Notes under the pieces: generated by a model
Seen by the model: the letters and a program-made list of their open reading frames with translations, nothing else
Database searches by the model: none
Told to the model about the DNA's origin: nothing
Part shown: positions 9,700-49,505 of the stretch, one piece after another
Numbering within the stretch: position 1 is the stretch's first letter
Layout: every line of letters begins with the position of its first letter
Made by a program: the position numbers and the translations under genes
NCBI RefSeq assembly: GCF_963664915.1
Contig: NZ_OY761810.1
Location: 1,688,661 to 1,752,660 of the forward strand
Reading direction: 5' to 3'
Length of the DNA: 64,000 nt
DNA from: an uncultured Caproiciproducens sp.
Lineage (GTDB): Bacteria > Bacillota > Clostridia > Oscillospirales > Acutalibacteraceae

Positions 9700-10680
9700 A
9701 TGTTAGTAGTTGGCGTTGACATTGGCGGGACAAAATGTGCGGTCAATCTAGGTGAAATTTCAGAGGATTATGTTGAAATACTACATAAATGTAAAGTCAG
9801 GGAGACACAGGCGTATGCTCCCTTGGGAATGCTTGATGCTTTAGTGAAAGATATTGTTTCGTGCGTGAACACACTGGATGGTTCCCGGCAGATAAAAGGG
9901 ATTGGAATTAGCTGCGGGGGACCGCTAGACAGCAAAACAGGCACGATTCTTTCTCCGCCGAATCTTCCGGGATGGGATTCTATCCCGATCACCGATTATT
10001 TTCAGGAGAAAACCGGAATCCCGGCTTGGCTCTGCAATGATGCCAATGCCTGCGCTCTTGCGGAATGGAAGCTGGGCGCGGGAAAGGGAAGCTCCAATAT
10101 GGTTTTCATGACCTTTGGCACTGGACTTGGAGCGGGTATTATTTTAGATAACCGGCTGTATCTCGGTGCGTGTGACATGGCGGGGGAAATCGGGCATATG
10201 CGTCTTTCGGATTACGGCCCGGCCGGGTATGGCAAGATGGGTTCTTTTGAAGGGTTTTGCAGCGGCGGAGGTATCGCGCAATTAGCAAAAACCATGATCC
10301 AGGAGGAACTTCAGTCAGGCCATAAAACCGGACTTTGCAGTAATTCCAATGAACTTGAACAGATCACAGCGGCCAAGGTGGGAATTGCCGCGAAAAACGG
10401 AGATCATCTGGCACGGGAAATTTTAAAGCAGGTCGGTTTGCAGCTGGGGAAAGGGTTGTCTGTTATCATGGATTTATTAAATCCGGAGTGTATTGTGATT
10501 GGAAGCATTTTTGTCCGCAGCTATGATGAAATATGGCCTTATGCGGAACAGGTGATCGAAAAAGAGACGCTTCCGATGATTCGAAAAGCTTGCAGAATCG
10601 TGCCAAGCCAGCTGTCGGATTCAGTTGGGGACATCGCCGGCTTAATCATTGCCGGCTATCATTTAGGATTGGAGCAATAA
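9700..10680 (+). CDS. ROK family sugar kinase lacking the zinc motif
   Basis: Actin-fold sugar kinase of the ROK family, 326 residues. The N-terminal phosphate loop GVDIGGTKCAVNLG, the catalytic Asp in NDANACALAEW, the second phosphate loop FGTGLGAGI and the EIGHMRL sugar-contact segment are all present, so phosphorylation of a hexose or amino sugar is likely. The CxCGxxGCxE zinc-binding motif of canonical ROK kinases is replaced by a Cys-poor segment (YGKMGSFEGFCSGGG). First gene of a run with the SIS isomerase (1-base gap) and the two-component genes. Substrate unknown; the importer downstream suggests a free monosaccharide taken up without phosphorylation. Confidence 0.88.
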   Translation: MLVVGVDIGGTKCAVNLGEISEDYVEILHKCKVRETQAYAPLGMLDALVKDIVSCVNTLDGSRQIKGIGISCGGPLDSKTGTILSPPNLPGWDSIPITDYFQEKTGIPAWLCNDANACALAEWKLGAGKGSSNMVFMTFGTGLGAGIILDNRLYLGACDMAGEIGHMRLSDYGPAGYGKMGSFEGFCSGGGIAQLAKTMIQEELQSGHKTGLCSNSNELEQITAAKVGIAAKNGDHLAREILKQVGLQLGKGLSVIMDLLNPECIVIGSIFVRSYDEIWPYAEQVIEKETLPMIRKACRIVPSQLSDSVGDIAGLIIAGYHLGLEQ

Positions 10681-10681
10681 T

Positions 10682-11329
10682 ATGAAAGAACGTACGATGC
10701 AGTTTTGTCTGCATTTTTTTGACATGCATCAGGACTTGCTGCCTTTAAAAACAAACTTATCGAATGTTTGCGAAATTATATTGAAAGTCTATCAAAATGG
10801 CGGCAAAGTCTTAATTTGCGGCAACGGGGGGAGCTGTGCGGACGGCGACCATATTGTGGGCGAGCTGATGAAAGGATTTTTGCTGAAAAGACCGCTGAAT
10901 CAGGAAATACAAAATAGATTCAAACAAAATTATGGTGCAGAGGGAGCCTCAATCGCGGAGAAATTACAGTGCGGACTCCCGGCCATCTCACTCAACGCCC
11001 ACGCCGCGCTGATGTCGGCATTCAGCAACGATGTGGATCCGGAACTGATTTATGCACAGCAGGTAATGGGCTATGCACAGGAGGGAGACGCGGTGATTGG
11101 CATCAGCACTTCCGGAAACGCGGTCAATGTGGCATATGCGCTGATGACTGCGAAAACATTGGGAGCGGTTCCCATTGCGCTGACCGGACGTGACGGCGGG
11201 AAAATAGCGGCAATCGCCGAATACAGTTTAATTGCCCCCGAACACGATACCTATCGTATTCAAGAATATCATTTGGCTATTTATCATTTGATATGCGCTT
11301 ATGTTGAATCTGAAATTTTTTCGTGTTAA
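10682..11329 (+). CDS. SIS-domain sugar-phosphate isomerase, GmhA-like
   Basis: Phosphosugar isomerase of the SIS fold, closest in pattern to sedoheptulose-7-phosphate isomerase (GmhA/LpcA). It has the phosphate-binding ICGNGGSCADGDHIVGEL, the second SIS motif GISTSGNAVNVAYAL, TGRDGGKIA and a C-terminal QEYHLAIYHLIC with the His expected of the family. The 215 residues fit. Typical aldose-ketose isomerases of this kind would act on the product of the adjacent ROK kinase, giving a two-step kinase-isomerase entry route. Starting 2 bases after the kinase stop, it is clearly co-transcribed. A true heptose role is not supported by any neighbouring heptose gene. Confidence 0.82.
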   Translation: MKERTMQFCLHFFDMHQDLLPLKTNLSNVCEIILKVYQNGGKVLICGNGGSCADGDHIVGELMKGFLLKRPLNQEIQNRFKQNYGAEGASIAEKLQCGLPAISLNAHAALMSAFSNDVDPELIYAQQVMGYAQEGDAVIGISTSGNAVNVAYALMTAKTLGAVPIALTGRDGGKIAAIAEYSLIAPEHDTYRIQEYHLAIYHLICAYVESEIFSC

Positions 11330-11362: not shown

Positions 11363-12976
11363 ATGATAAAGGTTATTATCGCAGACGACGAAGAAAATGT
11401 ATGCCGTCTGATCCGTGGATTAATCGACTGGGATTCGCTGGGAATGGAAATTGTCGGGGTTGCCCATAACGGCGTTGAAGCACTTGATTTAATAAAAGCC
11501 CTTTTGCCCGATTTAATGATTACGGATATCCGTATGCCGGGCTACGACGGGCTGGAAATGATCCGTCGTGCCACAAATATCAATCAAAATCTCGACTTTA
11601 TTATCATCAGCGGTTACCACCATTTTGAATACGCGCAGAATGCAATCAAATATGGGGTGAGCGATTATCTTTTAAAGCCGATTAAGAAGGATGACTTTCT
11701 GGTTGCGCTCAACAAAATGCGTGAACGGTATTTGAAGCGCACGGAACAGCTGAATAATGAAGAACAGCTGAAAAAACGTCTTAAAAATGATGTGAATAAA
11801 TTACGCTCAAATCTGTTTACAGAACGGCTGCTGAAAAAGGGCATGACCACACAGGATTTAACGGTTGAGATGATCAATGAAAATTATCATTTTTTATTTC
11901 AGCCCGCTCTTTTTCAAGTGTGTGCGGTAAAGATTGACTGCGGTTTTGAAGATGAATATAACAATACCATTAAAATATTGGAAGATAAGGTCATGCGGAT
12001 TTTAAACAGCCTGTTAAAGGAACAGTGCTTTGACATGGAGATCTATTTGGATGACAGCATTACATATTGTATTTTAAATTATGATGCGAATGATAAGAAA
12101 ACCATACGTAAACAAATCAAAGCGGTATTTGACGAATTGATGATCCAAAAGATCTCGTTTGAACAGCATGAATTTACAATTGGCGTGGGTACCGCTGTGG
12201 AAGATATCAGGCAATTAAAAGAGTCCTTCCGGGTTGCCAGGTACGCAATCGGGCAGAGATTTCTTCTGGGGACGGGCAGACTGATTGAAGATGTGACCGT
12301 GCATATGGAACCGCAAAGAGAAAGTGCATTGCTGGCAGAAATGAATAAAACGATGGGTGCTGCTATTGAAGTGCTGAAGAAGGATGCGGTGCTGAACTGC
12401 ATTACCGGATTAAAAAAGCAGATAGAAACGGAGAACCTGAGCGGAATTGAACTTTTTTCTTTAGCAAAACATGTTTGTGAAATGTACTTAACCCATCTTC
12501 GGAACAACCAGATTCAGATACAGTACGGGCAGGAGTTCTATGAAAAATTCTGTATTCATGCCAACCGCTGCAGCTCCATTGACCAGCTGTTTGAATATCT
12601 GTCCGTCATGGTGGGGAAATCCATTGAGGTGATTATAGAAGAAAAAAAGCAGGCGGATACCAAGCCGATCCGCCTTGCGAAAGAATATATTCAGGAAAAT
12701 TACAGGAAACCGATCACCTTGGAAGAAGTCAGCGGTTATGTCGGGTTTAATCCGACTTACTTCAGTACCCTGTTTAAAAAAGAAAACGGGGGCAATTTTG
12801 TGAATTACCTTTCCGAAATCCGCATGAATCGTGCGAAAGAACTTCTAAAGGAAACAAACTTAACCATTGCTGCCATCTGTGAACAGGTGGGGTACAATGA
12901 TCTCAAGAATTTTACAAAAAGCTTTTCAAAGAGTGTCGGGTTAAAGCCAAATGAATACCGAAAATTATACTCTTAA
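11363..12976 (+). CDS. YesN-type response regulator with AraC DNA-binding domain
   Basis: 537-residue response regulator. The receiver domain covers residues 1-120 with acidic pocket Asp8-Asp9 and phosphoacceptor Asp55 (LMITDIRMPGYDG). A long central region (about 130-420), common in YesN-like proteins, carries no enzyme motif. The last 100 residues are an AraC double helix-turn-helix: AKEYIQENYRKPITLEEV, FNPTYFSTLFKKENG and GYNDLKNFTKSFSKSVG. It is encoded 14 bases before its cognate kinase. The likely target is the promoter at 15579-15607, which has a good -10 and a poor -35 as expected of an activated promoter. Confidence 0.92.
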   Translation: MIKVIIADDEENVCRLIRGLIDWDSLGMEIVGVAHNGVEALDLIKALLPDLMITDIRMPGYDGLEMIRRATNINQNLDFIIISGYHHFEYAQNAIKYGVSDYLLKPIKKDDFLVALNKMRERYLKRTEQLNNEEQLKKRLKNDVNKLRSNLFTERLLKKGMTTQDLTVEMINENYHFLFQPALFQVCAVKIDCGFEDEYNNTIKILEDKVMRILNSLLKEQCFDMEIYLDDSITYCILNYDANDKKTIRKQIKAVFDELMIQKISFEQHEFTIGVGTAVEDIRQLKESFRVARYAIGQRFLLGTGRLIEDVTVHMEPQRESALLAEMNKTMGAAIEVLKKDAVLNCITGLKKQIETENLSGIELFSLAKHVCEMYLTHLRNNQIQIQYGQEFYEKFCIHANRCSSIDQLFEYLSVMVGKSIEVIIEEKKQADTKPIRLAKEYIQENYRKPITLEEVSGYVGFNPTYFSTLFKKENGGNFVNYLSEIRMNRAKELLKETNLTIAAICEQVGYNDLKNFTKSFSKSVGLKPNEYRKLYS

Positions 12977-12990
12977 ACCGGGGCGATAAA

Positions 12991-14016
12991 ATGAAAAGTA
13001 AAAAAACACGGTATCTTTCCTATCGCGTTGCCTGGATGTTCGCCATTATTTTTGCTTTCATGCTTGCTTCCTTGATTATTTTTACAGTGATTGCTGTTCG
13101 GGAAGGCAGATATCTGTTTTTTATTTTAGGCGGGTATTTTTCGCTGAGTATCCTTACCTATGTTGTTTACCGTTGGATCTATCAGCCATATCGGGAAAGC
13201 GCAAAGGTTTTGCACCTCTTTTTAACAGGTTATACAATCCATGCGCTTTTTGACCAACATGTACTTTTAAGCCCGGAAATAGAAGAAATAATTAAAAAAG
13301 TTGAAAAGATTATGAACACGGATGAGTTGGTCAATGCAACGAAAAAGCAGGCACAGTACCTTGCTTTGCAAAACCAGATTAATCCGCATTTTCTTTATAA
13401 CACGCTGGAAGGAATCCGCGGGGAAACGTTAAATGCAGGGTTGGAGAATGTATCTAAAATGACGGAGGCGTTGGCTACATTTTTCCGTTATACGATCTCA
13501 AATGTTGAAAATTTGGTAACGCTGGAGGATGAACTCACTAATGTAAACAATTACTACATCATACAGCGCTATCGCTTTGGGGAGAGGCTGAACCTCAGTG
13601 TGGAATATGACACGGAAAATGAAATGGAGATCATGGCCTGCAAACTTCCCAAACTAACCCTGCAGCCAATTGTGGAGAACGCAATTTATCACGGTATTGA
13701 GCGGAAAATTGGGAATGGAAATGTGCGGATTAAGATAGAAACGACTTCATCCCGGTTAATTATTACCATATCCGATAATGGAATCGGAATGACGGAGGAA
13801 CGGCTCAGAGAGATTGACGATAAACTGAGCCGAACGATTCTGGACTATATTAAACCGGACAGCGAGGCCCATGGCGGCATCGCTGTTGTCAATGTCAACA
13901 ACAGAATCAAACTTTTGTTTGGAGAAGAGTACGGGATTTGTATGTACAGCACATTAAATGTAGGTACGGACGTAGAGCTCACTTTGCCATTGGTGAAAAA
14001 GGATATAGGAAAATAA
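12991..14016 (+). CDS. YesM-type sensor histidine kinase without extracellular sensor domain
   Basis: Membrane sensor kinase of the LytS/YesM family, 341 residues. Two hydrophobic spans (about 13-35 and 41-61) are joined by only about five residues (VREGR), so there is essentially no outside domain. The phosphoacceptor His133 is in LQNQINPHFLYNTLEGI; the ATPase domain has VENAIYHGIE (N box), ISDNGIGM (G1) and GGIAVVNVNNRIKLLFG (G2). Typical YesM proteins carry a large extracellular double-Cache region of 200 or more residues, absent here. Sensing is therefore probably delegated, for example to the importer or to the ABC-like protein encoded 1 base downstream. Confidence 0.9.
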   Translation: MKSKKTRYLSYRVAWMFAIIFAFMLASLIIFTVIAVREGRYLFFILGGYFSLSILTYVVYRWIYQPYRESAKVLHLFLTGYTIHALFDQHVLLSPEIEEIIKKVEKIMNTDELVNATKKQAQYLALQNQINPHFLYNTLEGIRGETLNAGLENVSKMTEALATFFRYTISNVENLVTLEDELTNVNNYYIIQRYRFGERLNLSVEYDTENEMEIMACKLPKLTLQPIVENAIYHGIERKIGNGNVRIKIETTSSRLIITISDNGIGMTEERLREIDDKLSRTILDYIKPDSEAHGGIAVVNVNNRIKLLFGEEYGICMYSTLNVGTDVELTLPLVKKDIGK

Positions 14017-14017
14017 A

Positions 14018-15484
14018 ATGAAAAATGAAATTCTGAGGCTGGAAAGAGTCACTACCATTCAGGATGAAGTGACTTTGCTTGATAATTTTAATCTGCATAT
14101 TTTTCAGGGTGAAATTATGGGGCTCGTTTGCATCAATGCAAATGGAAAGGAGTCCCTAATTCAATTAATCAGCCAAAATTTGCCGATTCATTATGGACGA
14201 GTCTATTTTAATGAAGTACTGGTCAATAATTATCAGCACAGCCCCTTAACAATGAATAAGGTGGCCGTGATTGAGCAGAAAAGCAGACTGATTGAAGATC
14301 TGAGCGTAACGGACAATGTATTTGTACTGCGCAGAGGGTTTAAAAAATATCTCATCAATCCCCGAGTGTTAAATGAGCAGCTGAAGCAGTTCGTAAAAGA
14401 AATAGATCCTAATATTGACGGAAATGATTTGGTAGCGAATTTAAGCCCTTATGAAAAATGTGTTGTGGAGCTTTTGCGTGCAGTCATCATGGGCGCAAAA
14501 CTGATTGTGATTATGGATATCAGCAACTGTGTCAGTGCGGCGGATCTCGTAAAATTCCATAATCTTTTAAGGCATTACTGTCAAAAGGGCTTTTCGTTTT
14601 TATATATTTGCAATCATCATGAAGAAGCGTTCAAAATATGCACCAGAATGTCTCTCATGAAAGACGGGAAAATATTAAAGGTGTTTGACCAGCATGAATT
14701 TAAAAATGAAAATTTGGTTCCGTATTACATCGGGGAGTTTGCAGACGTTAAAAAGGTTACCGTGAATCGCCGGAGCGAGAAAGGAATATTGACCTTTCAA
14801 AACGTTTGCACGGAAAATTTAAATCATATGACGTTTTCGGTGTCGAAGGGAGAGTGTACGGTCTTATTTGATATGGATAATATCATATTATCGGATATTA
14901 TGCAGCTGATGAATGGAAAATTGCGGCAGGACAGCGGTAGCATTTTTCTGGAAAATGCTGTTTATTCGCAAAATCAGGCGCGGCATGCGCTGGGGAGCGG
15001 TGTAGCGTTTATCGGGGAAGACCCTATCCGATCAATGCTTTTTAAAGAAATGAGTTACATTGATAATTTGTGTTTTCTCCTTGATAAAAAGGAGAATGGG
15101 GTTCGGTTAAGCAAGAGAATCATAAAAAGCATTATTCGTGAATATGAACCTCTTATCGGTCCGGAAATTTATGAAAGCAATATTATGAATTTAAAAATAC
15201 AGTCGCTTTATGATTTAATATATTACAGAATTCAATTATTTCATCCAAAGATTGTCTTTTGCGTGCAGCCTTTTGCGGGTGCGGATATGTACCTGAGGCG
15301 GCATCTGATTGAACTCATTAATAAATTGAAAAAAAAAGGAATCACGGTTATTTTCCTTGCGGTTAATATTGCGGACTCTCTTGTGGTAGCGGATAAGCTG
15401 ATTCTGTTGGAAAAAGGACGGTTCAGCAGTGAATATTTACGTTCCGAGTTTAACGCGTTCAGTTCTGAAGGAATCATACTTTAA
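14018..15484 (+). CDS. Degenerate RbsA-like tandem ABC protein, probably non-catalytic
   Basis: 488-residue protein with the two-cassette layout of RbsA/MglA sugar-importer ATPases but eroded catalytic motifs. Cassette 1: the P-loop position reads CINANGKES (residues 38-46), keeping the Lys but losing two glycines; the signature LSGGQ is LSPYE; Walker B ends IMDIS with no catalytic Glu. Cassette 2: the P-loop position reads LFDMDNIILSD with no Lys, and Walker B reads FCVQPFAGAD where active relatives have DEPTRGID. Fold-level features remain, such as MSLMKDGKIL and KLILLEKGRF. It starts 1 base after the kinase stop, and an intact RbsA is encoded downstream. I infer a regulatory or adaptor role linking transporter state to the kinase; a decaying duplicate is the alternative, but the frame is intact. 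Confidence 0.72.
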   Translation: MKNEILRLERVTTIQDEVTLLDNFNLHIFQGEIMGLVCINANGKESLIQLISQNLPIHYGRVYFNEVLVNNYQHSPLTMNKVAVIEQKSRLIEDLSVTDNVFVLRRGFKKYLINPRVLNEQLKQFVKEIDPNIDGNDLVANLSPYEKCVVELLRAVIMGAKLIVIMDISNCVSAADLVKFHNLLRHYCQKGFSFLYICNHHEEAFKICTRMSLMKDGKILKVFDQHEFKNENLVPYYIGEFADVKKVTVNRRSEKGILTFQNVCTENLNHMTFSVSKGECTVLFDMDNIILSDIMQLMNGKLRQDSGSIFLENAVYSQNQARHALGSGVAFIGEDPIRSMLFKEMSYIDNLCFLLDKKENGVRLSKRIIKSIIREYEPLIGPEIYESNIMNLKIQSLYDLIYYRIQLFHPKIVFCVQPFAGADMYLRRHLIELINKLKKKGITVIFLAVNIADSLVVADKLILLEKGRFSSEYLRSEFNAFSSEGIIL

Positions 15485-15578
15485 AAAATAGATAAAACAG
15501 ATATGGGATGTTTATACTTTATATACAATAAATATAAAACAACAGAAGATATACCCTATCATTCAAAATCTGTCCCCC

Positions 15579-15607
15579 TTATGGAAAGAAAGAACCCATG
15601 CTATACT
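15579..15607 (+). promoter_or_regulatory. Promoter of the sugar importer operon
   Basis: TTATGG (15579-15584), 17 bases, TATACT (15602-15607). The weak -35 with a good -10 fits a promoter that needs the AraC-type response regulator; the A/T-rich 60 bases upstream may hold its site. Confidence 0.5.
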
Positions 15608-15654: not shown

Positions 15655-17172
15655 ATGGGGGAATACATAGCGGAACTTAATCATATCAATAAAAGTTTCC
15701 CGGGGGTAAAGGCACTGGATGATGTGTCGTTTAACTTAAGGGCCGGCGAAGTTTTAGCCCTTCTGGGAGAAAACGGTGCCGGAAAATCAACTCTTGTGAA
15801 AGTTTTGAGCGGTGTTTATACAAGGGATGACGGTGAAATAAAAATCTTTGATCAGGTCATCGGGGAGTTAACACCAAAAAAGGCACAGGAACTGGGCGTA
15901 GCAATTATCCATCAGGAATTGAATATGTGCGCACATCTTTCAGTGGCGGAAAATATTTTTTTGGCACGTGAAAAAACGCATTCCGGAATTCTTTCAAATA
16001 AGGAAATGAACAAAGAGGCAGAGGCTATTTTGGGCCGCCTGAATATTGATATCGATCCGACGACGATTGTTGGCGATCTGGCTGTCTCCAAGCAGCAGAT
16101 GGTGGAAATTGCAAAAGCACTTTCCACAAATGCGAAAATTCTGATAATGGACGAACCGACCTCCGCACTGACTTCGAACGAAATTGACGATTTATTTGTG
16201 ATAATACGAAAACTAAAAGCAGAGGGCTGCGGAATTGTTTACATATCCCATCGGCTGGAGGAACTTCAGAACATTATTGATCGCGTGATTATCATGCGTG
16301 ACGGAAAATATATTACATCCATGAAATTTGAGGACACGACGATGTCCGAAATCATTTCTTTTATGGTCGGCCGTGAAATAAAAGAAAAATTTCCCCGTGT
16401 CACTTGTGAACGAGGGAAAAAGATATTTGAAGTAAGGAATTTAAATGCAGGTAAAATGGTCCGAAATATTAATTTAGACCTGTATGAGGGAGAAATTGTC
16501 GGCATCGCAGGGCTCATGGGGGCCGGTCGGACAGAGACTACACGGGCGATTTTTGGTGCAGATCCGAAAGAGTCGGGCAAGATTTTTGTGGACGGCAGGG
16601 AAGTTACGATTAATAAGCCGATCGACGCGATTCGCGCAGGGATTGTGCTTGCTCCCGAAGACCGAAAAAAAGACGGATTATGCGTCAAACTCAGCGTGCA
16701 GGATAATATTGCTTTGCCCAATTTGGATTTGCTTTGCAATAAGATTGGCGTTGTAGACAGGAAAAAAGAAAAAACAATGACCGATAAGGCGGTCAAAAGT
16801 TTAAGTATTAAGCTTGTAAACGCGGATATGAATGCGGGCACCCTTTCTGGCGGAAACCAGCAAAAATTGGTTGTTGCCAAATGGCTGGCACGCAATTCGC
16901 GTGTGGTAATGTTCGACGAACCGACAAGGGGAATTGATGTAGCCGCGAAAGTTGAAATTTACAATCTGATGAACGAACTGAAAAAGCAGGGAATTGGGGT
17001 GCTTTTCGTATCCTCCGAAATGCCGGAGGTTATGGGAATCAGCGATAGGGTTCTGGTAATGTGCGATGGAAAAATTACCGGGGAATTGGCAACAGAAGAA
17101 GCTACACAAGATCTTATTTTGCAATACGCCACAAAATTTGATTCTAAATTCGAGCAGCAAAAAGCCATTTAA
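15655..17172 (+). CDS. RbsA-type sugar ABC importer ATPase
   Basis: Tandem-cassette ATPase that powers a CUT2-family monosaccharide importer, 505 residues. Cassette 1 has GENGAGKSTLVKVLSG and LIMDEPTSAL, both intact. Cassette 2 has the usual CUT2 variant P-loop AGLMGAGRTE, with signature LSGGNQQKLVVAKWL and Walker B MFDEPTRGIDV intact. The ribosome site AGGACAGG precedes the ATG by about 8 bases. It is followed by the permease and binding protein, the normal RbsA-C-B order. Family members move ribose, xylose, galactose, allose or inositol; the substrate here is not determined by sequence. Confidence 0.93.
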   Translation: MGEYIAELNHINKSFPGVKALDDVSFNLRAGEVLALLGENGAGKSTLVKVLSGVYTRDDGEIKIFDQVIGELTPKKAQELGVAIIHQELNMCAHLSVAENIFLAREKTHSGILSNKEMNKEAEAILGRLNIDIDPTTIVGDLAVSKQQMVEIAKALSTNAKILIMDEPTSALTSNEIDDLFVIIRKLKAEGCGIVYISHRLEELQNIIDRVIIMRDGKYITSMKFEDTTMSEIISFMVGREIKEKFPRVTCERGKKIFEVRNLNAGKMVRNINLDLYEGEIVGIAGLMGAGRTETTRAIFGADPKESGKIFVDGREVTINKPIDAIRAGIVLAPEDRKKDGLCVKLSVQDNIALPNLDLLCNKIGVVDRKKEKTMTDKAVKSLSIKLVNADMNAGTLSGGNQQKLVVAKWLARNSRVVMFDEPTRGIDVAAKVEIYNLMNELKKQGIGVLFVSSEMPEVMGISDRVLVMCDGKITGELATEEATQDLILQYATKFDSKFEQQKAI

Positions 17173-17198
17173 TAAAATTGAAGTCGGGAGCGTCTGAA

Positions 17199-18233
17199 AT
17201 GGAAACGAGAGAGAAACAAAGCGTATGGAAAAAGTTTACGGCTATTCGGGGCATGGGTCAGGTTGTTACCGTAACAGCAGGTCTTATCGTATTATGTATT
17301 GTATTTGCTGTATTGAACCCCTCCTTTTATTCAGGAAGGAATGTCGGGAATCTGCTGCGCCAGGTTGCGCCGATCTTAATTATCGGAATCGGCCAGTCCT
17401 ATGTGCTTATCACAGGAAATATTGACCTGTCAATCGGCTCTGTTGTGGGTATGAGCTGCATGATCTCTGCGACCTTAATGACAAAAGGGATGAATCCCTG
17501 GGTTGCAATGCTGCTTACCTTGTTAATTTGCGTAGGGGTGGGTATCTTAAATGGCTTGTTGGTAGCGCAGTGCAAGCTGCCGCCCTTTATCGCAACATTG
17601 GGCACCATGACGGTCGCCAGAGGGATCGCCCAGATTGTCAATAACAACTATAACACGGATGCAATCGGCGAGGCGGCGCAGGGCTACCGGAATTTATTCT
17701 ACTACGGCAGTACGTTTGGGCTTTATAACACGATCTGGATTGCTCTTGTGCTGTTCATTGGCTTTAACTTTCTGCTGAGTAAGACACGCACGGGGCGTCA
17801 TATTTATGCGGTGGGCAGCAATATTGAGGCGTCTAAATTGTCGGGCATCAACACAGACAGCACGACCATTAAAGTATATATTGTGAGTGCGTTCTGTGCC
17901 GGTGTGGTTGGTCTCATCACGAGTGCAACTGCCGGAATGGGAACGATGGATGCCGGCAACATGTACGAAATGTATGCGGTTGCGGCTTCTGTTATCGGCG
18001 GTGTTTCCACCCTTGGCGGTCAGGGCCTTCTCGTTGGTACGGTGGTTGGCGCAGCAATTTGGGGAGTGCTTCAGAACGGTCTTCAATTTGCAGGCGCACC
18101 GGTTGCAATGCGTAATATCGTAATCGGGACCATCGTAGTAATTTCCGTTTTGCTTGATGTAGTCATTCGTACAGGAAAACCGAAAAAAGTAAAAAACAGC
18201 AGTAAACTCATTCAAGCACAAAAAGAAAGTTAA
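17199..18233 (+). CDS. RbsC-type sugar ABC importer permease
   Basis: Membrane subunit of the CUT2 importer, 344 residues with about nine to ten hydrophobic spans. Family landmarks: ITGNIDLSIGSVVGMSCM, LPPFIATLGTMTVARGIAQ and SNIEASKLSGIN, then VIGGVSTLGGQG-LLVGTVVGA. I start at ATG 17199, preceded by GGGAG; the frame also offers a TTG at 17178 without a ribosome site. The gap to the ATPase gene is short, so it is in the same operon. Confidence 0.92.
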   Translation: METREKQSVWKKFTAIRGMGQVVTVTAGLIVLCIVFAVLNPSFYSGRNVGNLLRQVAPILIIGIGQSYVLITGNIDLSIGSVVGMSCMISATLMTKGMNPWVAMLLTLLICVGVGILNGLLVAQCKLPPFIATLGTMTVARGIAQIVNNNYNTDAIGEAAQGYRNLFYYGSTFGLYNTIWIALVLFIGFNFLLSKTRTGRHIYAVGSNIEASKLSGINTDSTTIKVYIVSAFCAGVVGLITSATAGMGTMDAGNMYEMYAVAASVIGGVSTLGGQGLLVGTVVGAAIWGVLQNGLQFAGAPVAMRNIVIGTIVVISVLLDVVIRTGKPKKVKNSSKLIQAQKES

Positions 18234-18275: not shown

Positions 18276-19262
18276 ATGAAAAAGAAAATCCTGGCTCTTT
18301 TACTATGCGCGGCTATGGCGGCAACCTCTATGGCTGGCTGTGGTCAGACAACCGGCACGGCATCCACTCCTGCCAACACACCTGCCGCAGGTGCAAGTTC
18401 GGCGGCAGCTCCGGCTTCCGACAAAAAGATCAAAGTCATTTTGATTACGATGGACAGCTTGGATCAGCACTGGGTATCGGTGGATAAAGGCGCCAAAAAA
18501 GCAGCTGACGAAATCGGAAATATTGAATACAAATGGATGGCTCCTGATAAGAAAGATGACGCGCAGCAGATTGAACGTGTAAACAACGCCATTGCTGATG
18601 GAGCAGCTGTAATTATGATCGCAGCTAATGGTCCGGATGCTATTTCAGCATCATTGGAAGATGCAAAAGCGAAGGGAATTAAAATCATTTATGTAGATTC
18701 CCCGGCGAAAACCGAAGGTGTTGCTACATTTGCCACAGATAATGAAGCTGCGGGTAAAACAGCAGGGACTGAAATGCTGAAGGCACTGGAAGCTGCCGGT
18801 AAGAAAGACGGAAAGATCGGAATCGTAAACGTCAACTCCGCCACAGCCTCAACCGTAGCACGTGAAAAAGGATTCCGTTCCGCATTTGAAGGCAAAGCCT
18901 ATACATTGCTTCAAACTCAGTATGGTGAAGGCGATGCCACCAAATCACAGGATATTGCCGACAACTACATAACAGAAGGTGCCGTAGGTATTTTCGGAGC
19001 GAACGAAGGCAGCACCGTTGGTGCCGGCAATGCGATTAAAGGTTCCGGCAAAAAGGATATCGTTGGAGTCGGCTTCGATAAATCCGACTCAATTTTCTCT
19101 TTGATTAAAGATGGATCCCTCCTTTGCGCAATGGCTCAGAACCCGGACGTTATGGGATATGAGGGCATGAAAGCTGCCGTCAAGGCTGTCAAAGGCGAAA
19201 CAATTGATAAAACATCAGTTGATACCGGTGTTTCTGTTCTCACGAAGGATACTATAAAGTAG
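18276..19262 (+). CDS. RbsB-type sugar-binding lipoprotein
   Basis: Extracellular solute-binding lipoprotein of the periplasmic-binding-protein-like I family, 328 residues. A signal peptide ends in the lipobox SMAGC (Cys22), followed by a low-complexity Ala/Ser/Thr/Pro linker. The mature domain shows KVILITMDSLDQHWVSV, KGIKIIYVDSPA (hinge region), NEAAGKTAG and GIFGANEGSTVGAG, the typical two-lobe pattern. It delivers the sugar to the RbsC/RbsA-like transporter encoded just upstream. A terminator closes the operon. The ligand could be a hexose given the kinase and isomerase genes on both sides. Confidence 0.93.
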   Translation: MKKKILALLLCAAMAATSMAGCGQTTGTASTPANTPAAGASSAAAPASDKKIKVILITMDSLDQHWVSVDKGAKKAADEIGNIEYKWMAPDKKDDAQQIERVNNAIADGAAVIMIAANGPDAISASLEDAKAKGIKIIYVDSPAKTEGVATFATDNEAAGKTAGTEMLKALEAAGKKDGKIGIVNVNSATASTVAREKGFRSAFEGKAYTLLQTQYGEGDATKSQDIADNYITEGAVGIFGANEGSTVGAGNAIKGSGKKDIVGVGFDKSDSIFSLIKDGSLLCAMAQNPDVMGYEGMKAAVKAVKGETIDKTSVDTGVSVLTKDTIK

Positions 19263-19592: not shown

Positions 19593-21473
19593 TTGGAAGT
19601 AATAAAATTATTACCAGCCTGCAAGGATTACCTGTGGGGCGGAAGCAGATTGAAAACAGAGTTTGGAAAACATAGCGAGAAAGAGATTATTGCAGAAACA
19701 TGGGAGCTGTCCTGTCACCCGGACGGACCGAGTACTATTGCGGAAGGAACGCATAAGGGGAAAACGTTGGTACAGTACCTAAGTGATCAGGAAAAATCTA
19801 TGCTCGGAACGAACTGCGCGCAGCTTAATGGTTTTCCACTTCTGATTAAGCTGATTGATGCGCAGAAAGATCTTTCGGTGCAGGTACATCCGAACGACAC
19901 CTATGCCCAGCGAGTGGAACACCAGCTGGGAAAGACCGAGATGTGGTATGTGATCGACTGCAAGCCGGGAGCAAGTCTGTACTATGGTCTTTCCTGTGAA
20001 CAGACGAAAGAGGAGTTACATAAACACATAGAGGACGGAACACTTTTGCAGGTGCTCAACCGGAAGGAGGTTCATCCGGGTGATGTCTTTTTCATTGAGG
20101 CAGGGACGATTCACGCGATCGGCGCGGGTATTTTAATTGCTGAAATTCAGGAAAACTCCAATGTGACCTACCGGGTCTACGATTATAACCGCACCGACGC
20201 GCAGGGGAATCAACGGGAACTGCATGTTCAAAAAGCGTTGGATGTTGCAAATTTGCGGCCTGCACCGGTACGGCATTGGAAAAAGCATCTGGCGAGCTGC
20301 CGATATTTTACGGTAGATAAGCTTAAAACAGATTCTGCTGCTTTTATTAATGTGGATCAAAAAAGTTTTCACCATCTGCTTTGTCTGAGTGGAAATGGAA
20401 AAATTGATTGGGATGGCGGCAGAATGATATTTAATAAGGGAGACAGCCTTTTTATTCCCGCCGGATTGGGCGGCTGCACACTGAATGGCTGTTTTGAGGC
20501 GCTGCACACCTGGATTTCGGACCCGCCCGTCTACCGGATTGGAATTGATCTGGGAGGAACGAATATCGCGGTGGGCGTGGTGGACGAGAATTACCGAATC
20601 GTGGCGAAATATTCCGTCCCGACAGCATCGGAGCGTCCTTATCAAGAGATTGTGGAGGATATGGCACAGGCGGTGCATAAAGTTCTGCGGGATGCCGGAA
20701 TTTCAATTGAACAGTGCTGTTCCATCGGAATCGGAAGCCCGGGCATCTGCGATTCCGAAACGGGGACTGTACTCTACACAAACAATTTGAACTGGAAAGA
20801 TGTGCCTTTAGCGGCTACGCTTCAAAAATGGATTGATCTGCCCTGTTACCTCAGCAACGACGCAAACTGCGCGGCGTTGGGGGAGGTGGCGGCAGGCGCG
20901 GCAAAAGGCTGCAAAAATGCCGTGCTGATTACTCTGGGCACCGGCGTCGGCGGAGGCGTGGTACTGGACGGGAAGATTTTTTCCGGCTGTCACTCCGCCG
21001 GAGCGGAATTAGGACATACGGTTCTGGTAAAGGACGGCGAGCTTTGCACCTGTGGAAGGCATGGCTGTCTGGAGGCGTATGCATCGGCAAGCGCACTCAT
21101 CCGGCAGACAAAGCGCGCTGCACAAGAACATCCCGAATCGGCAATCTGGGCGCTCTGCGGCGGAAATCTTGAGCATGTCAGCGGCAGAACTTCCTTTGAG
21201 GCAGAAAGGTTGGGCGATGAAACGGCGCGGCAGGTGGTGAATGCTTACATATCCTATCTCAGCGAAGGGGTTCTGAATTTTGTAAATATTTTTCGGCCGG
21301 AATGCATCATCCTCGGCGGCGGTATCTGCAACGAAGGGGCGCGCCTGCTTGATCCGATCAACACCTATGTCAGGCAGTATTGTTTCGGCGGAGAAATAGT
21401 CACTGCACCAAAGGTAATCAAAGCAGCGCTTGGGAACGATGCTGGGATTATCGGTGCCGCGCTTCTGTGTTAA
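19593..21473 (+). CDS. Phosphomannose isomerase fused to a ROK sugar kinase
   Basis: 626-residue two-domain enzyme. Residues 1 to about 310 are a class I mannose-6-phosphate isomerase of the short Firmicute type: LPACKDYLWGGSRLK, zinc ligands in LSVQVHPND, KTEMWYVI and GTIHAIGAGILIAEIQ. Residues from about 318 to the end are a complete ROK kinase: RIGIDLGGTNIAVGVV, SNDANCAALGE, TLGTGVGGGVV, GAELGHT and the zinc motif CTCGRHGCLEAYAS. Kinase and isomerase in one chain suggest direct conversion of mannose or fructose to the partner hexose 6-phosphate. Translation starts at TTG 19593 with AGAGGGGG upstream. It follows the hexose importer and may handle its cargo. Confidence 0.9.
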   Translation: MEVIKLLPACKDYLWGGSRLKTEFGKHSEKEIIAETWELSCHPDGPSTIAEGTHKGKTLVQYLSDQEKSMLGTNCAQLNGFPLLIKLIDAQKDLSVQVHPNDTYAQRVEHQLGKTEMWYVIDCKPGASLYYGLSCEQTKEELHKHIEDGTLLQVLNRKEVHPGDVFFIEAGTIHAIGAGILIAEIQENSNVTYRVYDYNRTDAQGNQRELHVQKALDVANLRPAPVRHWKKHLASCRYFTVDKLKTDSAAFINVDQKSFHHLLCLSGNGKIDWDGGRMIFNKGDSLFIPAGLGGCTLNGCFEALHTWISDPPVYRIGIDLGGTNIAVGVVDENYRIVAKYSVPTASERPYQEIVEDMAQAVHKVLRDAGISIEQCCSIGIGSPGICDSETGTVLYTNNLNWKDVPLAATLQKWIDLPCYLSNDANCAALGEVAAGAAKGCKNAVLITLGTGVGGGVVLDGKIFSGCHSAGAELGHTVLVKDGELCTCGRHGCLEAYASASALIRQTKRAAQEHPESAIWALCGGNLEHVSGRTSFEAERLGDETARQVVNAYISYLSEGVLNFVNIFRPECIILGGGICNEGARLLDPINTYVRQYCFGGEIVTAPKVIKAALGNDAGIIGAALLC

Positions 21474-49043: not shown

Positions 49044-49505
49044 ATAGGAAAATTACTGGATGAACGGCTCATCATTATGGATGCGGATGTGCACAGTGAC
49101 AAAGATTGCATTCGAATGATGGCTACCCGCTTTGAAGAATGCGGCTATGTCAAGCCGGGATATGGAGAAGCGGTGATTGAACGCGAAACAGATTTGCCCA
49201 CCGGACTTCCGGGGAAGGGAATCAATCTTGCGATTCCGCATACAAACAACAAGCTGGTAATCAAACCGGCAGTAGGGGTTATTATTCCGCGGAAACCGGT
49301 TGAATTTCGAATGATGGGGAATAAAGAGACCGCTCTAAACTGCGAAGTGATCCTTCCGCTGGTCGTTAAGGATTCCAAACAGCAGATCGGAATGCTGAAA
49401 AAAATCATGCGGATCATTCAGGACAGCGAGTTGCTGAAAAGGATGAAGGATTCTGAGAGCAAGGCGGAAATTATGGATTGCCTGAGCTCTTTGGAAGACG
49501 AATAA
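49044..49505 (+). CDS. PTS galactitol-type EIIA with apparent ATA start codon
   Basis: EIIA of the fructose/galactitol superfamily, 153 residues from the proposed start. Phospho-His66 is in GINLAIPHTNNKL; TGLPGKG before it is typical of GatA-like proteins. Homologous N-terminal residues (GKLLDERLIIMDAD) begin upstream of the first ATG (49077), and the ribosome site GGGAGG (49030-49035) is 8 bases before an ATA codon at 49044 but more than 40 before ATG 49077. Initiation at ATA 49044 (or ATA 49041) is therefore proposed; a start at ATG 49077 would lack a ribosome site and 11 conserved residues. Next genes: EIIB (26 bases) and EIIC. Confidence 0.8.
   Translation: MGKLLDERLIIMDADVHSDKDCIRMMATRFEECGYVKPGYGEAVIERETDLPTGLPGKGINLAIPHTNNKLVIKPAVGVIIPRKPVEFRMMGNKETALNCEVILPLVVKDSKQQIGMLKKIMRIIQDSELLKRMKDSESKAEIMDCLSSLEDE

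Follow-up and report, generated by a model that had tools for sequence, protein, structure and literature searches.

Why does an operon that encodes a two-component system and a sugar importer contain, between the kinase gene and an intact rbsA, a second RbsA-like ATPase gene whose catalytic motifs are lost? The question arises from a stretch of 64,000 nucleotides of an uncultured Caproiciproducens sp. (contig NZ_OY761810.1), referred to as the window in the following. The product of this gene is called pseudo-RbsA here.

Gene content and layout of the operon

The genes in question form a run on the + strand, encoding a ROK kinase, a SIS protein, YesN, YesM, pseudo-RbsA, RbsA, RbsC and an RbsB-type binding protein. 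The following features were annotated:

9700..10680, + strand: ROK-family sugar kinase, the first of the upstream gene run
10682..11329, + strand: SIS-domain isomerase-like protein
11363..12976, + strand: YesN response regulator with a receiver and an AraC-type HTH
12991..14016, + strand: YesM-type histidine kinase, 341 aa, a TM hairpin without ectodomain, His and N-box kept
13042..13167, + strand: hydrophobic hairpin of the kinase, residues ~18-36 and ~41-59 by hydropathy (helices 9-37 and 42-79 in the predicted model)
14018..15484, + strand: pseudo-RbsA, catalytically dead tandem-NBD protein, 488 aa, ATG start (uninterrupted frame, motif comparison, profile match, AlphaFold2)
14300..14344, + strand: pseudo-RbsA residues 95-109 behind Q-loop 1, where the coupling-helix groove of cassette 1 is expected (conservation; homology to MalK)
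15035..15079, + strand: pseudo-RbsA residues 340-354, the cassette 2 counterpart behind Q-loop 2 (conservation)
15554..15607, + strand: conserved direct C-rich repeat and TGCTATACT -10-like element, putative YesN-dependent rbsABC promoter
15655..17172, + strand: active RbsA, tandem NBD, motifs intact
17178..18233, + strand: RbsC-type permease (BPD_transp_2), whose orthologs co-occur with pseudo-RbsA
18276..19262, + strand: RbsB-type sugar-binding protein

A preliminary description of this DNA had reported an intact frame of 488 codons that begins one base after the kinase gene, with an active RbsA encoded 170 bases further on. All three points hold: the ORF is present without interruption, YesM ends one base ahead of it, and the downstream rbsA starts at 15655 with its motifs intact. 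The kinase (PF06580 and HATPase) and the regulator (receiver and AraC-type HTH) have the domains of a YesM/YesN system. Beyond the run, a 626-aa ORF (19593-21473) fuses a mannose-6-phosphate-isomerase-like part to a ROK sugar kinase; in four congener loci it is matched in its kinase half only.

In the congeners, the stretch between the dead ATPase gene and rbsA contains a conserved direct C-rich repeat with the -10-like TGCTATACT behind it. In the window, the regular expression for the repeat matches once, at 15554, as does the pattern of repeat plus promoter; a second, weak match with three mismatches is located at 49293. Across the loci compared, the pattern was detected upstream of rbsA in 21 of 41 regions, including one (L213) from which the pseudo gene has moved while YesN-YesM remain, and it was not found in the other 20, of which 18 are loci of the dead-ATPase family. 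Most of the regions without the repeat come from more distant family loci. Over the whole loci (691,565 bases, both strands), 56 raw matches were obtained, with overlapping starts counted. The repeat and the -10-like element may together form a promoter activated by YesN. Since the conserved repeat lies before rbsA, the dead ATPase gene falls into the regulator block. A search of the window against Rfam gave no match.

Ancestry, motif loss and conservation of pseudo-RbsA

The best NCBIfam model for pseudo-RbsA is RbsA (E 6.4e-45), which covers residues 4-477 and agrees with the RbsA-like tandem-cassette layout described before. The score of 153.8 bits misses the curated cutoff of 745, as does that of the active neighbour (578.8 bits), and pseudo-RbsA lies below the cutoffs of all NCBIfam models listed. 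With 46 aligned family members, AlphaFold2 predicted a tandem-NBD fold with confidence (mean pLDDT 87.4). The best Foldseek matches in the PDB are two-NBD and ABC proteins (DppD, OppD, ABCF and others), with no RbsA among the 50 matches listed, and a profile search of PDB sequences likewise yielded generic NBDs in the best 60 of 421 matches.

The alignment to the active neighbour reveals replacements in both cassettes. P-loop 1 has changed from GENGAGKST to CINANGKES with its Lys retained, and Walker B1 from LIMDEPTSA to IVIMDISNC, where the Asp is gone and the Glu is replaced by Asp; the loss of the P-loop 1 glycines and of the Walker B1 Glu noted in the preliminary description is thus borne out. 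In cassette 2, P-loop 2 reads DMDNIILSD instead of GLMGAGRTE, signature 2 LKIQSLYD instead of LSGGNQQK, and Walker B2 VFCVQPFAG instead of VMFDEPTRG. Two further losses listed at that time, the P-loop Lys of cassette 2 and LSGGQ of cassette 1, were dropped as evidence of death, because active proteins lack them too: 24 of 25 carry Arg at the former position, and the active neighbour has LAVSKQQM at the latter. With these corrections, the alignments confirm the motif loss as real, affecting both cassettes and being wider than stated before.

A scan of bacterial genome contigs resulted in 58 loci, in 48 of which (L098-L144, L149) a degenerate member was matched. In two further loci (L146, L150), a degenerate member is present at another position, and the other eight contain ordinary or other ABC proteins. 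Some genomes are common to this locus survey and to the genome samples described below. The degenerate relatives span several Clostridial families and one Paenibacillus; among the carriers are Caproicibacter, Anaerotruncus, Diplocloster, Tepidanaerobacter, Caloramator, Ruminiclostridium and Robinsoniella.

In the main clade (43 rows), the first Gly of P-loop 1 is kept in 4 rows and the Lys in 22, the Walker B1 Asp in 1 and the Glu in 6, whereas the first Gly of P-loop 2, the Walker B2 Asp and the Walker B2 Glu are kept in none. The active rows keep the same residues in 25/25, with the exception of the Walker B2 Glu (24/25). A P-loop 1 of the GLSGAGK or GLSGSGK type is retained in four distant members (L140, L142, L143, L144), and L146 has a complete one (GKNHAGKST), for which reason the motif loss looks stepwise. 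Restored motifs in most homologues, which the preliminary description would have taken as the mark of an ordinary ATPase, were mostly not seen, these five proteins being the part that does not conform. In two other loci, RbsA-like genes with P-loops partly kept lie directly before YesN (L216, 3300-6555; L217, 3950-7061); they are possible intermediates toward the dead form.

In a quick tree search with 75 proteins, in which no root was inferred, the 50 degenerate rows are split from the 25 active ones by one branch (SH-aLRT 99). The split was recovered with a support of 92 in another tree, which comprised 56 rows and included two additional distant members as well as the two possible intermediates. 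The long-branched rows (L138, L141, L146, L149, L150, L207, L208 and others) are placed without certainty within these trees. The identity of pseudo-RbsA to the neighbouring RbsA is ~20%, whereas syntenic orthologs with 61-86% identity were found in 6 of 10 congeners. Another congener (G004) has a relative of 27% identity, and three have none.

The frame is open in 47 of the 48 degenerate copies, the exception being L127 (10001-11513), where the frameshift stems from a draft genome in which a sequencing error and a real loss look alike. Among six Caproiciproducens-type genomes, the pairwise dN/dS of pseudo-RbsA, measured as the preliminary description had proposed, is 0.056-0.098 (7 of 15 pairs with unsaturated dS), next to 0.029-0.099 for RbsA and 0.016-0.133 for YesM in the same genomes. 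These values and the open frames bear out the earlier view that the frame is under selection. Missing or frameshifted copies in close relatives had been named as signs of decay; 7 of 10 congeners carry a copy, while 3 lack both the gene and the permease ortholog, and L127 is frameshifted. Judged from the sequences, the gene belongs to an ancient conserved family of RbsA ancestry and is not a product of decay.

The conservation within the family has shifted away from the nucleotide-binding motifs. In the active set (25), the top measured segments are P-loop 1 (1.00), signature 2 (0.86), Walker B2 (0.84) and P-loop 2 (0.81). In the 43 rows of the main clade, from which 7 distant rows were left out, the P-loops (0.48, 0.44) lie below the clade mean of 0.51. 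For the segments directly behind the Q-loops, the main clade reaches 0.73 and 0.67, where the active set has 0.66 and 0.45. This rise is only suggestive, because several transporter subfamilies are combined in the active set and its values at permease contacts are lower for that reason. The best stretch of 15 residues in the main clade is 95-109 (0.75); residues 340-354 score 0.69, equal to 21-35 and 142-156. According to the passages on MalK in PMC3150292, the helical subdomain of this ATPase holds the cleft where the coupling helix of the permease docks. By homology, residues 95-109 and 340-354 would be expected to form the coupling-helix grooves.

The partner kinase and the co-occurrence with the transporter

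Typical YesM kinases possess a large extracellular sensor domain between TM1 and TM2. This domain is absent from the kinase of the window, and it is this missing sensor domain, overlooked in the preliminary description, that is the strongest clue to the function of pseudo-RbsA. In the predicted model of the window kinase (moderate pLDDT of 74), two long helices make up the N-terminal part, and no additional sensor domain is seen.

The gene order noted in the window recurs, as the degenerate gene is the next gene 3' of YesM in 44 of 48 loci, with a largest gap of ~330 bases (L135). The four exceptions are L112, where it has moved away, and L121-L123, where it is located before YesN. In L121 (11853-13889), a gene for a methyl-accepting chemotaxis protein lies between the dead ATPase and YesN, and L122 is similar; in L150 (10423-12895), the degenerate gene runs in the opposite direction to the kinase gene, and the two overlap at the 3' end of the latter.

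In total, 48 partner kinases were examined, including those of the window, L146 and L150 and excluding those of L104, L112 and L120, the last of which is broken into frames. Their lengths are 334-361 aa in 45 cases, 394 aa in L133 and L134 (long start extensions) and 268 aa in L149. By hydropathy, at least two hydrophobic peaks are present in 46 of the 48 and a single one in L127 and L149, and in none of the 48 is there room for an ectodomain between the peaks. In the alignment of 41 kinases, no row departs from His133 or Asn230.

A census of the YesM-type kinases (same Pfam family) in 11 congeners comprised 79 proteins. All eight pseudo-linked kinases, one of which is cut by a contig end, have frames below 400 aa, versus 2 of the 71 others, and these two are apparent pieces of frameshifted long kinases. 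Most frames of this type in the genus have ~490-660 aa; the pseudo-linked ones have 346-369 aa, one of them being cut at the contig end. Among the lower-scoring kinases fetched from the class genomes, three short ones (in G130, G343 and G204) adjoin a degenerate RbsA-like gene. Two more of these kinases, one in G215 and one of 444 aa in G204, are accompanied by an RbsA-like gene with partly preserved P-loops ahead of YesN; the two long kinases of G235 and G270 are without an RbsA-like neighbour.

The second partner is the permease. In a sample of 391 genomes of the class, dead ATPases were identified with the A3 profile (at least 447 bits, the next match having 300), short kinases with the A4 profile (at least 415 bits) and permease orthologs with an E-value of 1e-100 or better. 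The dead ATPase was found in 13 genomes, the short YesM in 14 and the permease ortholog in 14; misses are possible in these scans because 4-5 candidates were scored per genome and the profiles derive partly from sampled genomes. All 13 dead-ATPase genomes contain both the short kinase and the permease ortholog. Behind the 14th short kinase (G082), the start of a dead-ATPase gene follows at the contig end.

In the genome with the 14th permease (G333), 54 candidates were scored and none of them is a dead ATPase. Here, a gene for a ROK-family protein precedes rbsABC; its N-terminal match to a MarR-type HTH is below the Pfam cutoff, and we read it as a putative repressor. The absence of the C-rich repeat from this locus (L218) is not diagnostic, as 20 of 41 regions are without it. 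The same transporter subfamily occurs without a dead ATPase in one more case, a second transporter copy in G008 that adjoins a LacI-family regulator. This copy (L238, 2679-8767) is further accompanied by a gene of the N-acylglucosamine-epimerase family, which hints at a hexose such as mannose as the possible sugar.

In a sample of 398 genomes of the phylum, the dead ATPase was present in 5 of 5 further permease genomes, and in the genus the 7 of 11 genomes with a permease ortholog are the seven with a close pseudo-RbsA ortholog. In G396, the dead-ATPase gene lies on another contig, between genes for a class I tRNA synthetase and an M42 peptidase, and YesN-YesM-RbsABC are located away from it. 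This is the only truly unlinked case, since contig ends explain the separation of pseudo gene and permease in G150, G155 and G307.

Across 26 of 27 loci (L124 was left out because its transporter belongs to another subfamily), the distances of pseudo-RbsA covary with those of YesN (0.94), YesM (0.91), permease (0.87), RbsA (0.85) and binding protein (0.76). The partial correlations are 0.57 for YesN, 0.43 for the permease, 0.28 for YesM, -0.04 for RbsA and -0.27 for the binding protein. Both this correlation and the co-occurrence partly reflect joint inheritance, because clustered genes share their history.

Pseudo-RbsA as a candidate link between permease and kinase

A conserved pseudo-ATPase tied to a two-component system is well supported by its retention, the purifying selection, the ectodomain-less YesM, the co-occurrence with the permease and the promoter-like element. 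Pseudo-RbsA is probably a dedicated adaptor or signalling subunit that lets the sensorless YesM read the RbsC permease. An RbsA-type transporter ATPase would have been duplicated long ago, would then have lost ATP hydrolysis, and would now stand in for the missing sensor of the adjacent YesM/YesN system. As the tandem-NBD shape and the expected groove segments are kept, pseudo-RbsA should bind the RbsC dimer, either by exchanging with RbsA or by occupying a permease population of its own, and it would also touch YesM. Docking of the sugar-loaded binding protein on RbsC would move the permease, this motion would reach YesM via the dead ATPase, and rbsABC would then be activated by YesN from the conserved promoter-like element directly downstream of the dead-ATPase gene. 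We infer the physical contacts, the direction of the signal, the exchange with RbsA and the binding of YesN to the repeat, just as the docking on permease or kinase and the reporting of transport had been inferred in the preliminary description. Against this reading stand G004 and several Lachnospiraceae loci, in which the module accompanies another RbsABC subfamily, as well as the four loci without adjacency, the frameshifted L127 and the broken kinase of L120. A more specific version is put forward tentatively, with the odds slightly against it: pseudo-RbsA might cap a sub-population of RbsC, on which docking of loaded RbsB would signal to the sensorless YesM instead of leading to transport.

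The alternative that survives best is a cytosolic sensor on the kinase only, in which pseudo-RbsA binds YesM, a remodelled NBD pocket senses a sugar phosphate or nucleotide, and the permease stays outside the complex. An ectodomain-less kinase needs input from somewhere, the distant clade retains P-loop 1, and the pairing with YesM persists where the transporter nearby belongs to another subfamily (L124, L138, L140, L141, L143, L144). A nucleotide pocket under selection, however, fits poorly with main-clade P-loops conserved below the mean and post-Q-loop segments conserved above it (0.73, 0.67), and a permease outside the complex fits poorly with its ortholog in all 13 pseudo genomes of the class sample; this reading is considered unlikely.

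Still less likely is a modulator of transport without a direct signalling role, which would compete with RbsA on RbsC and thereby throttle import. The retained groove segments and the co-occurrence with the permease would be expected of it, but the gene is located on the regulator side, upstream of the promoter-like repeat, and its pairing with an ectodomain-less YesM would be left unexplained. In G333 and at the second transporter copy of G008, moreover, the same subfamily does without pseudo-RbsA and other regulators adjoin, which weakens this reading further.

That the protein is divergent yet an active ATPase is very improbable: the P-loop 1 Lys in the window protein and about half of the main clade (22/43), the Walker B1 Glu in six rows and the P-loops of the YesN-linked L216 and L217 would suit it, whereas three catalytic residues of cassette 2 are missing from the entire clade and the Walker B1 Asp and the first P-loop 1 Gly from nearly all of it (1/43 and 4/43 kept). 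A decaying or recent duplicate of the neighbouring RbsA, to which only the frameshifted L127 and the copy off the operon in L112 might point, was rejected as next to impossible on account of the identity pattern, the tree split, the dN/dS of 0.06-0.10 and the open frames.

For the adaptor between permease and YesM, the nearest precedent is the Bce module of Firmicutes (BceAB-BceS). As outlined in PMC10314905, with PMC7828314 as a review cited alongside, a kinase without dedicated sensing domain is driven there by an ABC transporter, and a proposed sensing of flux raises transporter expression. In Bce modules, BceA is a working ATPase and the contact with the kinase is made by the BceB permease, whereas here a separate dead ATPase is added. 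The sensor-less kinase is common to both, and the coupling to the ABC transporter would be as well. The kinase here is, by difference, YesM-type (PF06580), and the transporter is a sugar importer. BceB-type permeases carry a large external domain; in place of such a permease with an active BceA, the operon encodes an RbsC-type permease (BPD_transp_2).

In XylFII-LytS of Clostridium beijerinckii, a transporter-type binding protein acts as sugar sensor of a LytS-type kinase, according to the sections of PMC9769921 that deal with it. That sensory subunit is extracellular and acts on the kinase ectodomain, whereas here it would be a cytoplasmic ATPase on a kinase without ectodomain. With RbsA/MglA-type importer ATPases, pseudo-RbsA shares the tandem NBD layout and the ancestry over residues 4-477, and it differs in the missing catalytic motifs, the scores below the model cutoffs and the separate branch. 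From other YesM/YesN systems, with which the domains of kinase and regulator are shared, the module is set apart by its short kinases. Among the best matches in the openly licensed PubMed Central literature, no report of a degenerate RbsA as signalling partner was found.

In annotations, pseudo-RbsA proteins can easily pass for sugar ABC ATPases, since their best matches are RbsA-type models. Transporter-driven two-component sensing is best described for the peptide-antibiotic Bce modules with their working ATPases. Dead tandem ATPases beside ectodomain-less kinases, with more than one type of sugar transporter, would show transporter parts rebuilt into a sensor. The model is testable, as pseudo-ATPase, kinase and permease are few genes and the promoter-like element can serve as readout. 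If the capped permease proves true, it would represent a widespread Clostridial sensor module made from transporter parts, in which a pseudo-ATPase replaces the ectodomain of the kinase.
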